In this document: one piece after another, positions 28,349-64,000 of the stretch | Numbering within the stretch: position 1 is the first letter of the stretch | How the letters are laid out: every line of letters starts with the position of its first letter | NCBI RefSeq assembly: GCF_003609975.1 | Contig: NZ_AP018400.1 | Coordinates: forward strand, 31,001-95,000 | Length of the DNA: 64,000 nt | Direction: 5' to 3' | Source of the DNA: Streptococcus ruminantium | Lineage (GTDB): Bacteria > Bacillota > Bacilli > Lactobacillales > Streptococcaceae | Translations under genes and position numbers: made by a program | Notes under the pieces: model-generated | What the model was told of the DNA's origin: nothing | The model's database searches: none | What the model saw: the letters and a program-made list of their open reading frames with translations, nothing else

Positions 28349-29251
28349 ATGGATAATAAGGAATTTGGTCAGCGTGTACGGCAACTACGAGAACAAGCAA
28401 TGATAACACGAGAACAGTTTTGTGATGATGAAATAGAACTCTCTGTTCGTCAGTTAACTCGGATTGAGGCTGGTACCTGTAAACCAACATTTTCTAAGAT
28501 AAATTTTATCGCCGATCGTTTGGGGATGGGTCTATATGAACTAATGCCAGATTACATCAAACTACCAGAGAGATATTCAAAATTGAAATTTGATGTTCTG
28601 CGAACGCCTACATATGGGAATGAGGGATTGGTAGAAACACGTAACGAAATGATCACGGAAATTTATGAAGAGTATTATGATGACTTGCCAGAAGAAGAAC
28701 AAATAGCAATGGATGCTTTTCAATCGCGTCTTGACACACTGGAATCAGGTGTTGAGGGATTTGGTAAAGAAATATTAGAAGACTATTTTGAACAAGTGTT
28801 TCGTAAACCTAAGTATGAAGTAAATGATTTATTAATTATTCGACTTCATCTTGAATACGTACGACTTGCGGATCGTAACTCGGAGATATTTCTTCATTTT
28901 CTGGGTCTCATTGAAGAGTTACATAAACAGATTGATGTAGTTAGTGCAGGTGATCTGTTCGTTTTGCGTGATACATTACTATCTTGTGTGAACATATTGG
29001 GTAGCAAAAAATATTATGAACCTATTCTAAAGATATTCGATAGTGTGGATAAAATTACACAGTTAACACAGGATTTTCAAAAAAAGCCCATTATTAGCTT
29101 GATGAAATGGAAATATGCTCTTTTTGTTACAAAAGATAGAAAAGAAGCTGAGCGGCATTATCAAGAAGCGAAATTATTTTCCCAGTTAATAGAAAATGAG
29201 ATTTTAAAGCAGAAAATTGATGAGGAATGGAAAACTGATACCCAACAATAG
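28349..29251 (+). CDS. comR: Competence regulator ComR (Rgg-family)
   Basis: ComR binds the imported ComS-derived pheromone XIP and then activates comS and comX. The 300 residues have an N-terminal helix-turn-helix (about 5-65, FGQRVRQLREQAM... SVRQLTRIEAG) and a C-terminal helical repeat domain that binds peptide. GGAGG precedes ATG 28349 and two TATAAT hexamers lie at 28300 and 28312. Its last codons overlap the ComR box, and comS follows. This linkage with a Trp-rich peptide identifies ComR rather than a general Rgg. Confidence 0.9.
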   Translation: MDNKEFGQRVRQLREQAMITREQFCDDEIELSVRQLTRIEAGTCKPTFSKINFIADRLGMGLYELMPDYIKLPERYSKLKFDVLRTPTYGNEGLVETRNEMITEIYEEYYDDLPEEEQIAMDAFQSRLDTLESGVEGFGKEILEDYFEQVFRKPKYEVNDLLIIRLHLEYVRLADRNSEIFLHFLGLIEELHKQIDVVSAGDLFVLRDTLLSCVNILGSKKYYEPILKIFDSVDKITQLTQDFQKKPIISLMKWKYALFVTKDRKEAERHYQEAKLFSQLIENEILKQKIDEEWKTDTQQ

Positions 29252-29293
29252 GACATTTTTGTCCTGTTGAATCAATAAAATAAATTTTATAAT
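29250..29293 (+). promoter_or_regulatory. ComR box and promoter of comS
   Basis: AGGACA-TTTT-TGTCCT (29250-29265) is a perfect inverted repeat of the ComR-box type, and TATAAT stands at 29288-29293, 23 bases after the final C of TGTCC. The sequence TGTCCTGTTGAATCAAT is repeated exactly in the comX promoter. Confidence 0.88.
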
Positions 29294-29322: not shown

Positions 29323-29388
29323 ATGTTTAATTTTTTGAATGTTTTCAGTCGCTTAGGAGGAAACTGGGGAACCTGGACAGAACAATAG
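29323..29388 (+). CDS. comS: Competence pheromone precursor ComS
   Basis: This 21-residue peptide, MFNFLNVFSRLGGNWGTWTEQ, is too short for routine gene calling. Its C-terminal part with two tryptophans closely resembles the XIP pheromone known from S. suis (GNWGTWVEE in common strains, as I recall), with changed last residues. The likely mature form is the last nine residues, exported, cut, re-imported by the oligopeptide permease and bound by ComR. It has AAGGAG before the ATG and a ComR box upstream, so it is part of a positive feedback loop. A terminator follows. Confidence 0.9.
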   Translation: MFNFLNVFSRLGGNWGTWTEQ

Positions 29389-41090: not shown

Positions 41091-41133
41091 GGACAAAAAT
41101 GTCCTGTTGAATCAATTCCCTTTTCGATAAACT
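41091..41133 (+). promoter_or_regulatory. ComR box and promoter of comX
   Basis: GGACA-AAAA-TGTCC (41091-41104) is a perfect inverted repeat, and TAAACT at 41128-41133 is the -10, again 23 bases after the box. The stretch TGTCCTGTTGAATCAAT is shared with the comS promoter. Confidence 0.88.
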
Positions 41134-41161: not shown

Positions 41162-41632
41162 ATGGAATTTGAAAAGGTTTATTCAAAAGTGAAAGGGATC
41201 GTCCACAAGGCCCGTAAAGATTTTTATGTTAAACTATGGGAAAAGGGAGACTGGGAGCAAGAAGGGATGATGGTCTTGTTTGAATTATTGGATGCACAAC
41301 CAAATCTCTTGGAGGAGTCTGATAGATTATACTGTTATTTCAAGGTGAAATTTAGAAACCATATCAAAGATGTGATTCGCAAACAAGAAAGTCAGAAGCG
41401 AAAATTTGATCGAATGGCGCACGAAGAAATTCATGGTCTCTCACACATGATTCAATCACCTGGTCTAATCAATGATGAGTTATTGATGCTGCGAGCTGCT
41501 TTGAGAGAGTACCGGAAAAATCTTTCACCGAGCCAGCAAGAAAATTATGAAAAACTCATGAGTGGTCAATGTTTCAATGGTCGTCGCAAAATGATTCGTG
41601 ACCTGCAGGAATACTTGAAAGATTTTCGCTAG
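41162..41632 (+). CDS. comX: Competence sigma factor ComX (SigX)
   Basis: ComX directs RNA polymerase to TNCGAATA promoters of late competence genes. The 156 residues begin MEFEKVYSKVKGIVHKARKD and include the sigma region 2-like part (WEQEGMMVLFELLD, CYFKVKFRNHIKDVIRKQESQKRK) and a region 4-like tail (LREYRKNLSPSQQENYEKL). AAAGGAG precedes ATG 41162. Control by ComR is clear from the box upstream. At least five exact ComX boxes occur in this same window. Confidence 0.93.
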   Translation: MEFEKVYSKVKGIVHKARKDFYVKLWEKGDWEQEGMMVLFELLDAQPNLLEESDRLYCYFKVKFRNHIKDVIRKQESQKRKFDRMAHEEIHGLSHMIQSPGLINDELLMLRAALREYRKNLSPSQQENYEKLMSGQCFNGRRKMIRDLQEYLKDFR

Positions 41633-57525: not shown

Positions 57526-58937
57526 GGCTCATTGTCAACTGTAGTGAGTGACTTATAGCTAAGCGCGAGAGGAGACGAACTTCGTCTTCTCATTTTTGAT
57601 GTTCAAGGCGATTAAGATACGTTTCTTGAAATTGTCAAAGTTCTTGTAACCAAAGGCATTGCGCTTGATGTCTTTGATGAGTTTGTTAGTGGCCTCAAGT
57701 TTAGCGTTAGAGTAAGGCAATTCAATGGCGTTAGTGATGTAGTTTTTATAGCGAATAAATGTGCTCAAAGCGGTTTTAAAGGTGCGATTGAGATGAGGTA
57801 AAGCGTCTTGAATTAAGCCCCAAAACTGCTCAGTATTCTTCTCTTGCAGGTGGAAAAGGAGTAACTGGTACAGGTCATAGTAATCTTTAAGCTCAGGGAC
57901 CAGTTTGAACATCTTATTGAGACATTCTCTAGGCGTTAGAGTCTCTCTAAAAGATCTAGAGTAGAAAGCCTTAGGAGATAGTTTCCGACTATCTTTTTGA
58001 ATAAGTCTCCAGTAGTACTTAAGAGCTCTGTATTCAAGAGATTTATCGTCAAATTGCTTCATGATTTCAATACGTGTTTGCTTGAGAGCTCTATTGATGT
58101 GCTGGACAATGTGGAAACGATCGAGGACAATTTTGGTATTTGGAAATAATTTCTTAATGAGAGGGATATAGCTCCCTGACATATCGACAGTGACGACTTT
58201 AACTTTTTTTCTAGCTTCTTTCGAGTACTTGAAGAAATGATTTCGGATGGTTGTTTGACGTCTGTCATCAAGGATGGTAATGATTTTCTTGGTGTTAAAA
58301 TCCTGAGCAATGAAGGCCAGTTTTCCCTTCTGGTAGGAGAACTCATCCCAGGAAAGCACTTCTGGCAAAGTAGTGTACTCCTCTTGGAAATGAAATTGCT
58401 TGAACTTGCGATAGACAGTAGAGGTAGAGATAGCGAGCTTAGCAGCGATATGGGTAAGAGCCTCTCTGTTGAGCAATAGGTGAGCGATTTTCTGTCTCAC
58501 TATTTCAGAAATTTGGCAATTTTTCTGAACGAGAGATGTTTCAGAAACAGTTACTTTTCGACAGGACTTGCACTGAAATCGTCTCTTTTTCAAACGAATG
58601 AGGCTAGGGAAACCAGCAATCTCAATAAAAGGGATTTTAGAAGGTTTCTAGAAGTCGTATTTGATTTGTTTTCCTTTACAGTGTTTACATTTGGGAGGGT
58701 GATAATCAAGTGTAGCGGTGACTTCGATATGGGTATCGTATTGAATGGCTTTATTTAAGATGATATTTTTGTCTTTAATTCCGATGAGTAATGTGGTATT
58801 ATTGATGTGTTCCATAAGATACTTTCTAATGAGTTGTTTAAGCGCTTTTCATTATAAGTCTTATGGGACTTTTTTGATACTCAAAAAGCCCTATAATCTC
58901 CACAGTGGGGTTTACCCACTACAGAAATTATAGAGCC
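57526..58937 (-). mobile_element. ISL3-family insertion sequence, IS1167-like, inactive
   Basis: The element is about 1,412 bp. Its ends are GGCTCATTGTCAACTGTAGTG (57526-57546, first 20 bases diagnostic) and, on the other strand, GGCTCTATAATTTCTGTAG from 58937 backwards, imperfect inverted repeats of ISL3 type. It carries one transposase gene on the minus strand, broken by a stop. No 8-bp target duplication is seen: the left flank follows rplQ, the right flank is ftsH coding sequence, so the two sides do not come from one simple insertion. Confidence 0.8.
57559..58815 (-). pseudogene. ISL3-family transposase with amber stop at codon 56
   Basis: On the minus strand ATG at 58815-58813 opens a 418-codon transposase of the IS1167 kind. 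TAG at 58650-58648 interrupts it after KQIKYDF, where the relatives I know read YDFQKPSKIP, so CAG or CAA has become TAG. After the stop the frame is intact to 57559, with the second zinc pair CKSC, VVTVDMSGSY-like catalytic region, VLDRFHIVQHINRAL and YSNAKLEATN. The zinc pairs CKHC and CKSC lie on either side of the stop. A single change, so inactivation is recent. Confidence 0.85.
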
Positions 58938-59211
58938 GAAGCACATTTCAGACCAGACGGCATATGAACTGGATAATGAAGTGCGCAATCTTCTCAATGA
59001 GGCACGTGATAAAGCAGCTGAGATTATCCAGGACCATCGAGATACTCACAAGCTTATAGCCGAAGCTCTTTTAAAATACGAAACATTGGACAGTGTTCAA
59101 ATCAAGTCACTTTATGAGACAGGTAAAATGCCAGCAAACTCAGAAACTGAAGAAGACGTGCATCCTCTTTCATTTGATGAAATAAAAGAAAAGATGAATA
59201 CAACTCCTTAG
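58938..59211 (+). pseudogene. ftsH: 3' remnant of the cell-division protease gene ftsH
   Basis: From the IS end the frame reads KHISDQTAYELDNEVRNLL and on through THKLIAEALLKYETLD, SLYETGKMP and FDEIKEKMN to a stop at 59209-59211. This is the C-terminal 91 residues of streptococcal FtsH, the membrane AAA protease; the membrane, ATPase and protease parts are missing. ATG 58981 could start a fragment but has no function I know. In other streptococci a complete ftsH stands before a comX-type gene and an rRNA operon, and that order is kept here in remnant form. Confidence 0.85.
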
Positions 59212-59242
59212 TCACATTATTTATAAAACTATAGACACTTAG

Positions 59243-59275
59243 AGAGAACGAAAATAGACAATTCGTTCTCTTTTC
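59243..59275 (+). terminator. Terminator after the ftsH remnant
   Basis: AGAGAACGAA (59243-59252) pairs with TTCGTTCTCT (59262-59271), then TTTTC. It probably was the natural ftsH terminator and came along with the fragment. Confidence 0.75.
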
Positions 59276-59372
59276 TTGCTTATTATTCTCTTCTAAGTCT
59301 CTGAGGCAGTTTGTATAGTTTGTCACATAAGCAATTATTCCGATCTGACTGTGTAGTGCTTAAACAATAAAC

Positions 59373-59416
59373 TGACAAAGATGTCCTGTTCATCGTATGT
59401 CTATTCCTGTTATAGT
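59373..59416 (+). promoter_or_regulatory. Third ComR-type box and promoter
   Basis: TGACA-AAGA-TGTCC (59373-59386) keeps the GACA/TGTC inverted repeat of the comS and comX boxes, with one outer G changed, and continues TGTCCTGTT like both. TATAGT at 59411-59416 is the -10, one base further away than in comS and comX. Confidence 0.7.
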
Positions 59417-59444
59417 ATCTACTAGTAGGAGGAACCAAAGAATA

Positions 59445-59717
59445 ATGAAAAAAACGTCCCCAAAACAAGTCATTGAAGGCTATCATATTATGAAGAGCAG
59501 AAGAATTGTAGCTCTTCCCTCGTCACGAAAAGCTACAGATTCCAAGATACTCACAGATTCGAGCTTTATAAAATTGCGTCAAAAACTACGTCAATTTAGC
59601 GCCAATTTAAGTCCTGAAGAAGCAAAAGAATACAGCAAAATTATTAGCGGACAATCTTCACCAGCTCAAGCATCCATACTCCATTCACTTTATGAGTATC
59701 TTGAACAAGAAGATTAA
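59445..59717 (+). CDS. Small protein under a ComR-type promoter, ComX-like tail
   Basis: This 90-residue basic protein is not a family I know. Its last 47 residues, from LRQKLRQFSANLSPEE, align without gaps to the end of ComX (LREYRKNLSPSQQ... at 41162-41632) with 17 identities by eye, including NLSP, SGQ and EYL. The N-terminal half (MKKTSPKQVIEGYHIMKSRR) has no likeness to ComX, so sigma region 2 is absent. AGGAGG is 12 bases before ATG 59445, a long distance; an ATG at 59397 is in frame but lies before the predicted transcript start. It could be a remodelled or truncated comX copy, or a partner that competes with ComX. Confidence 0.6.
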   Translation: MKKTSPKQVIEGYHIMKSRRIVALPSSRKATDSKILTDSSFIKLRQKLRQFSANLSPEEAKEYSKIISGQSSPAQASILHSLYEYLEQED

Positions 59718-59759
59718 CACGCATACTGGACGAAATATAAAAAAACCAGGCGTAAGGTA

Positions 59760-59788
59760 TTGACAGGAGCTTAATAAGGTGATAGAAT
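59760..59788 (+). promoter_or_regulatory. rRNA promoter P1
   Basis: TTGACA (59760-59765), 17 bases, TAGAAT (59783-59788). It is the upstream of two rRNA promoters. Confidence 0.8.
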
Positions 59789-59866
59789 GAATGAGTTGTC
59801 ACGAGGAGTAATTCATAGTGTCAGATATCAAAATTGAAAAAAAGCAAAAAAAAGTAAAAAAAGATA

Positions 59867-59895
59867 TTGACAAAGTTAAGTAGACGTGATAAACT
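59867..59895 (+). promoter_or_regulatory. rRNA promoter P2
   Basis: TTGACA (59867-59872), 17 bases, TAAACT (59890-59895), preceded by A-rich DNA (59835-59866) suited as UP element. The leader of about 145 bases up to 16S contains the processing arm at 59942. Confidence 0.85.
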
Positions 59896-59941
59896 AAGAT
59901 AGTTGTCTCGTGAGAAGCGAGGACAAGTAATAAGACCTTTG

Positions 59942-59956
59942 AAAATTGAAGAAGAC
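59942..59956 (+). other. Left arm of the pre-16S processing stem
   Basis: AAAATTGAAGAAGAC is the exact reverse complement of GTCTTCTTCAATTTT at 61746-61760, between 16S and tRNA-Ala. The two arms enclose 16S rRNA and should form the RNase III processing stem. Confidence 0.8.
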
Positions 59957-60045
59957 GAACCAAACGTGCAGGGTGGACTTTTAAAGATAGAAGTCCGTCA
60001 ATGAACAAAAACAATAAGTCAGTCAAGACTGACCAGAAAAAAACT

Positions 60046-61610
<1,565 letters not shown>

Positions 61611-61618
61611 ATAAGCAA

Positions 61619-61722
61619 GTAATGAGAACGTTACGAAATCCGTATGAAGATGGGAAATTCGTGTAGAAGTCAGTAGACTTCAAGGGAATTTATCATTTTC
61701 ACTAGGAATTTAGTTCGAATAC
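61619..61722 (+). repeat. BOX-like hairpin repeat in the 16S-tRNA spacer
   Basis: Forward copy of the family: GAACGTTACGAAATCC, GTATGAAGATGGGAAATTC, a centre GAAGTCAGTAGACTTC, then GAATTTATCATTTTCAC, GGAATTTAGTTCGAA. The halves pair (GAAC..ATCC with GGAT-like GGAAT..GTTC). It sits inside the RNase III stem region between 16S and tRNA-Ala. Confidence 0.65.
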
Positions 61723-61771
61723 ACTTGCTCGGAATCCTGTACGTAGTCTTCTTCAATTTTGAGAGGTCTGT

Positions 61772-61844
61772 GGGGCCTTAGCTCAGCTGGGAGAGCGCCT
61801 GCTTTGCACGCAGGAGGTCAGCGGTTCGATCCCGCTAGGCTCCA
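61772..61844 (+). tRNA. tRNA-Ala (anticodon TGC)
   Basis: A 73-base tRNA with acceptor GGGGCCT/AGGCTCC, D-arm GCTCAGCTGGGAGAGC, anticodon stem CCTGC/GCAGG with loop TTTGCAC (TGC at 61805-61807) and T-arm GCGGTTCGATCCCGC. The discriminator base is A and CCA is not encoded. It is in the 16S-23S spacer as usual in streptococci. Confidence 0.97.
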
Positions 61845-61886
61845 TCGGTAACGAAAGTTACCAAACAGAATACAAAGGTTCAAGTA

Positions 61887-62003
61887 GTTGAACACGACCT
61901 CATTTTCTAGGAAAAGAGATAAACTTCCTAGTGTGCAAGGCACACTTCGTCAGTTTCCTATTTTTCTACAAAAATGTCCCATTGTGGGAATGGTCTTTGT
62001 ATC
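61887..62003 (-). repeat. BOX-like hairpin repeat in the tRNA-23S spacer
   Basis: Reverse copy: GTTGAACACGACCT, AAAGAGATAAACTTCCTAG, loop GTGTGCAAGGCACAC, TTCGTCAGTTTCCTATTTTTC and TCTTTGTATCC. It is very like the copy before purE. After it, TTGAAAATTGAATA (about 62018) repeats part of the 16S leader and should pair with sequence behind 23S outside the window. Confidence 0.7.
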
Positions 62004-62138
62004 CTATCTTTGTCCATTGAAAATTGAATATCTATATCAAATTCCATTTATTTTAAGAAATAAATGAATAGTAACAAGAAAATAAACCGAAACGCTGTGA
62101 ATTAATGAGAATTCTAGTTAAAAGAACTAGGTTAATAA

Positions 62139-64000
<1,862 letters not shown>

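Follow-up and report, generated by a model that had tools for sequence, protein, structure and literature searches.

A small ComR-box gene with a ComX-like tail at the ftsH-16S rRNA site, a candidate tuner of competence in Streptococcus

The window, a stretch of 64,000 nucleotides at G000:C1:31001-95000 of a single-contig, 2.09 Mb Streptococcus genome, carries a small gene between an ftsH remnant and a 16S ribosomal RNA (rRNA) gene. It encodes a 90-residue protein, P0001, whose tail is homologous to the C-terminal part of the competence sigma factor ComX (SigX), and it stands behind a ComR-type promoter. Our best reading, which draws on sequence, a structural model and analogy and which we hold tentatively, at somewhat less than an even chance, is that P0001 is a ComR-driven, DNA-blind mimic of sigma region 4 that would tune or end ComX-dependent transcription; as such, the gene is a candidate for a factor that restrains or adjusts DNA uptake. 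Its elements are:

59374-59390, forward strand: ComR box GACAAAGATGTC with its CTGTT extension
59411-59416, forward strand: -10 box TATAGT, 25 bases after TGTC
59427-59432, forward strand: Shine-Dalgarno-like AGGAGG, read directly, with the ATG 12 bases downstream
59445-59717, forward strand: the 90-residue open reading frame P0001, a truncated and rewritten ComX relative, starting with ATG at 59445 (open reading frame list, BLASTP, profile)
59541-59714, forward strand: sigma region 4-like domain, residues 33-90, with the FxGR motif lost

A ComX tail without region 2

The small protein aligns to the ComX of its own genome without gaps, with 18 of 51 residues identical by BLASTP; the initial annotation had counted 17 identities over 47 residues. 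We built a tail profile from 44 distinct ComX proteins, excluding the new protein; these came from loci with a tblastn match to the genome's own ComX (E 1e-20) that started at or before residue 3 and ended at or beyond residue 152, shorter matches being dropped. Residues 33-88 score 36.6 bits against this profile and the best of 5000 shuffles reaches 11.0, so the likeness to ComX noted in the initial annotation is real. In a tree the small protein sits on a very long branch (1.75), and its placement is uncertain. NCBIfam holds no family for it, its sole Pfam match is far below the cut-off, and the ComX profile found no convincing match among solved structures by sequence (best E 0.094).

Sigma region 2, which spans roughly residues 1-90 of ComX, is absent, as initially described. 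P0001 scores -1.7 bits against a head profile, a value equalled or exceeded by 2639 of 5000 shuffles. The 44 ComX queries found no match to ComX residues 1-68 in 59212-60050, and neither they nor the head profile gave a reliable ComX match to residues 1-31 of P0001. With one query (L018_34) the match reaches weakly as far back as ComX residue 69, with 25% identity over 94 residues, and we do not rely on it. MAFFT does align the N-terminus of the small protein with that of ComX, but we rejected descent of one from the other, given the shuffle-level head score.

The missing N-terminal part bears on the idea, raised in the initial annotation, that the protein competes with ComX for its degradation machinery and so protects it by occupying MecA/ClpCP. 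Both mecA and comEC are present in the genome; in SigX, however, the MecA-binding loop lies in the N-terminal domain according to work in S. thermophilus (PMC4109385; this and other papers are cited from excerpts). Because that loop falls in the part lacking here, we regard such competition as very unlikely.

Within the tail, the hydrophobic core of region 4 is kept (L102, L110, L114, L121, Y129, L148, L152), and the FxGR motif, which in ComX marks the start of the last helix, is lost: F138 and G140, each found in 44 of 44 ComX proteins, and R141, found in 43, are replaced by S, A and Q. The charge of the last helix is -4 in the small protein compared to +1 to +6 in the 44 ComX proteins. Helices are predicted at residues 39-54, 57-67 and 75-89, with a mean predicted local distance difference test score of 81-91 per ten-residue block from residue 41 onward. 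The predicted model resembles sigma-4 structures; sigma factors, with the alignment falling in their C-terminal part, make up 11 of its 17 structural matches.

The ComR-type promoter and the comX1 site

GACAAAGATGTCCTGTT occurs at 59374-59390, ahead of the small gene, and the arrangement GACA-N4-TGTC-CTGT that we took as the mark of a ComR target is present there. In the window GACANNNNTGTC occurs five times where 0.71 occurrences are expected, and GACANNNNTGTCMTGT occurs five times in the whole genome, with none for the reversed control; these five sites lie at comS, at comX, at both copies of the small gene and within one coding gene. The third ComR-type promoter proposed in the initial annotation therefore stands. 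The distance from box to ATG is 59 bases for the small gene, 59 for comS and 58 for comX. The small gene probably still responds to the competence pheromone. A scan with a CIN-box pattern gave 36 matches compared to 58 in the control, showing that the pattern is too loose to use. The other competence genes of the window are:

28349-29251, forward strand: comR (PF18710 ComR_TPR, 221.8 bits)
29252-29268, forward strand: ComR box of comS
29323-29388, forward strand: comS, 21 residues, ending GNWGTWTEQ, read directly
41092-41108, forward strand: ComR box of comX
41162-41632, forward strand: intact comX (comX2 here), upstream of rpsJ

Given that the box is the same as those of comS and comX, co-induction is expected, and this would also suit a protein that binds and blocks ComR in the manner of XrpA of S. 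mutans, a small protein that inhibits competence and whose frame lies inside comX (PMC6563777). On reading frame and tail homology, we consider a ComR blocker unlikely here: the XrpA frame differs from the comX frame, so that no homology would be expected, whereas what the small gene retains is the tail of ComX, read in the ComX frame.

The position of the small gene points to its origin. In S. suis-like genomes a ComR-box comX can lie between ftsH and 16S rRNA and upstream of rpsJ; we coined the names comX1 and comX2, respectively, for these two S. suis sites. Among 29 relative loci around ftsH (L035-L063), eight have a full S. suis-like comX behind ftsH (L036-L038, L040-L042, L049, L053), with 76-79% identity to the ComX of our genome, and six run from ftsH to 16S without comX (L045, L047, L048, L054, L059, L062); the other 15 are cut by contig ends, have other genes or hold partial or more distant comX. 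Searching with ComX gave 23 named loci, 22 labelled S. suis and one S. oralis. In S. suis P1/7 a single comX (SSU0016) is described between ftsH and 16S, with two ComR-box promoters (PMC4072589). Genomes 10581 (L098, L106) and AP_SS21 (L097, L105), both labelled S. suis, have a full-length ComR-box comX at both the ftsH and the rpsJ site.

The window's own genome has an intact comX at the rpsJ site, while the small gene occupies the site between ftsH and 16S rRNA. The flanking ftsH remnant and 16S start were correctly identified at the outset, and the suggested equivalence to a comX1 position is borne out by the ftsH-comX-16S arrangement of the S. suis-like relatives. In our best reading, the small gene is a descendant of comX1. 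The streptococcus stands near S. suis, a pathogen of pigs, but the S. suis label used in the initial annotation is unproven: ftsH is only 82% identical to that of the nearest other species genome. The setting of the window copy is:

57559-58593, reverse strand: transposase frame beside the ftsH remnant, at the duplication junction
58945-59211, forward strand: 3' remnant of ftsH; the exact match to the other copy starts at 58945
60051-64000, forward strand: start of the rRNA operon (16S), 3' of the small gene, matching the other copy to the end of the window

A second, identical copy of the small gene lies at G000:C1:19941-20210, behind an intact ftsH, and the ftsH-to-16S interval is 839 bases at both. 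The exact identity extends over at least 5056 bases (window 58945-64000 and G000:C1:19441-24496; the flank beyond reads N), spanning the end of ftsH, the small gene and the first part of the rRNA operon. The window copy of this stretch is therefore a recent or recently homogenised duplicate. The ISL3-like transposase is apparently split into two frames of 344 and 55 residues (57559-58815); in the flank L124, a frame of 418 residues has a nearly identical start.

Two copies of the small gene for one comX, together with the expected co-expression, could also favour a helper that stabilises ComX or completes its contact with polymerase, in the manner of ComW or a split sigma factor. Such a partner seems improbable to us: the intact comX already encodes a full region 4, and S. 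suis S10 is reported to be competent with comX and comR, with no such gene mentioned in the excerpt (PMC4072589).

Function or relic

To ask what kept the tail recognisable, we compared codon positions. Against the genome's own comX, 24, 33 and 11 of 56 codons are identical at positions 1, 2 and 3; against comX1 of the relative L069, the counts are 20, 33 and 21. Functional ComX pairs of similar divergence show a like pattern, for example 0.47, 0.58 and 0.29 in comparison with the S. oralis locus. We then simulated the tails of five extant ComX genes to the same DNA divergence without selection, using a model with substitutions only, similar to that of Hasegawa, Kishino and Yano, with assumed base frequencies and the extant genes as starts. 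Drifted tails acquire about 3.5 stops per 56 codons and are stop-free in 2.6-2.8% of runs; no more than 1.3% of 20000 runs show as large a surplus of second- over third-position matches. Mean profile scores of drifted tails lie between -1.4 and -2.9 bits and the highest single score is 22.2 (2000 per start, five starts), compared to 37.1 for the real tail. These results indicate that the tail diverged mostly under selection as a protein, for most of its divergence. The suggestion that the gene is a decayed comX copy in the plain sense thus fails: the simulations reject simple neutral decay, and the decayed copies known from other species do not resemble it. The test is compatible with long function followed by recent loss.

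That history is what the strongest competing explanation proposes, namely that the small gene is a relic of a divergent, once functional comX paralog, its product now inactive, which was recently doubled along with the rRNA operon. Several findings weigh on this side and against a present function. The first is occurrence. A search of 284 Streptococcus species genomes at E 0.01 gave matches of some kind in 42; the only full-length match is in the genome of the window, the others being ComX tails, so the gene is known from one species. A collection of 5.8 billion proteins searched at E 1 gave one match, the same gene with one substitution and an upstream start (P0002, 18 members). A scan of named genomes with the small protein found no match, and its own genome may fall outside such scans. 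The second is the -10 box, which is displaced by one base: of the 26 distinct ComR promoters compared, 25 have TAnnnT at a distance of 24 bases from TGTC, and the small gene, with TATAGT at 25, is the sole exception. The initial annotation had noted the same shift, counting 24 bases instead of 23. The 26 promoters were chosen for a box with A/C-T directly after it and, 35-79 bases further on, an ATG whose first residues match the ComX, ComS or small-gene pattern; non-fitting ones were dropped uncounted, and many near relatives are included. In most comX promoters GATAAA at 22 fits TATAAT slightly better than TAnnnT at 24, which leaves the exact comX -10 uncertain, and we based the register on TAnnnT at 24 because it is common to those 25 promoters. 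Third, the identity of the two copies means that they were duplicated or homogenised along with the rRNA genes. Finally, broken comX copies do occur in other streptococci.

These broken copies are instructive. In L026 (G063), the comX tail and the rRNA leader are tandemly duplicated between comX and 16S at about 1929-2107, exactly as far as the eye can tell; L122 (G093) holds a frame-shifted copy in a genome with a longer comX frame elsewhere, and L123 (G107) holds a copy without its front part. All three keep FxGR, and the small gene does not. The tail profile retrieved 19 proteins between 47 and 106 residues long. Two of them, P0002 and P0018, are the small gene itself; the remaining 17 are ComX forms that are partial, shifted or carry internal deletions, every one with FxGR. 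P0008 (100 residues) and P0019 (85 residues), one of them labelled S. intermedius, are in-frame internal deletions of ComX that retain the motif. The relic is further opposed by a frame free of stops and frameshifts where drift would give several, by a profile score far above those of drifted tails, and by an intact ComR box and ribosome site. Weighing both sides, we regard the relic as a serious possibility, and a rewritten comX1 that has a function as roughly twice as likely.

The frame itself may have been misread before. A longer frame of 106 residues (window 59397-59717) begins within the promoter, and the protein collection stores the small gene as a 106-residue frame (P0002) and a 47-residue piece (P0018); gene callers have therefore probably missed the likely start at 59445.

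A proposed mechanism and known systems

Region 4 of a sigma factor touches the -35 element and the tip helix of the beta-flap, and region 2 touches the -10 element and the clamp helices (PMC7892883). A protein with the region 4 core and neither region 2 nor a basic reading face could hold the flap without DNA. In the course of events we propose, the ancestor would be comX1, a ComR-controlled sigma gene between ftsH and 16S rRNA as in the relatives, with the role of competence sigma factor kept by the comX upstream of rpsJ. Region 2, for core binding and -10 recognition, would have been lost from comX1, and the region 4 domain would have retained its fold but not FxGR and the basic last helix, the face presumed to read DNA. 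Upon induction by XIP (sigX-inducing peptide), ComR would be expected to produce the small protein together with ComX and ComS, as their shared box suggests. The protein may then bind whatever partner region 4 of ComX binds, in all likelihood the RNA polymerase beta-flap, but read no DNA, and ComX-dependent late transcription would be dampened or timed, by analogy with T4 gp33. Competition for RNA polymerase, one of the options given in the initial annotation, is the mechanism that we infer and prefer. More doubtful is the fuller version, that a comX duplicate has turned into a pheromone-induced antagonist whose DNA-blind sigma-4 domain shortens the competence window by occupying RNA polymerase, a brake built from an activator.

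Exit from competence in ComRS streptococci is only partly understood. In pneumococcus, shut-off involves SigX and DprA at the cell pole (PMC7665891), and in S. salivarius PepF takes part in exit (PMC9173638); exit mechanisms therefore vary among species. In S. suis, exit-regulating genes were not identifiable from transcriptomics data alone (PMC5167698), and the small gene is not mentioned in the excerpts of that paper or of PMC4858297, also on S. suis. No ComX-tail-only protein appeared among the titles and abstract openings listed in our literature search, which is no proof of absence from print. If our proposal is true, P0001, as a DNA-blind ComX derivative induced together with ComX, would offer a factor for exit or tuning that lends itself to direct testing, and would clearly exemplify how the copy of a sigma factor can become a regulator of its own paralog.

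The small gene shares with comX of the ftsH-16S site (SSU0016 in S. suis P1/7) a ComR-box promoter, its position and a homologous region 4. It differs in encoding a small protein without region 2, in which FxGR is lost, the last helix is acidic and the N-terminus is of no reliable ancestry. The broken copies in L026, L122 and L123 are likewise tail-only comX frames; they differ in keeping FxGR, and GACA-N4-TGTC was not found in the fetched stretches around them. XrpA of S. mutans is also a small protein linked to comX, but it lies in another frame within comX and binds ComR (PMC6563777), whereas the small gene is separate and has its own box. The likeness to T4 gp33 is one of mode of action only: gp33 shares no discernible sequence similarity with sigma factors, its structure is unrelated to sigma-4, and it holds the flap without DNA and represses basal transcription (PMC2988020, PMC7892883). 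Just as gp33 is a small protein that replaces sigma region 4 and does not itself bind DNA, so too may P0001 bind the flap.
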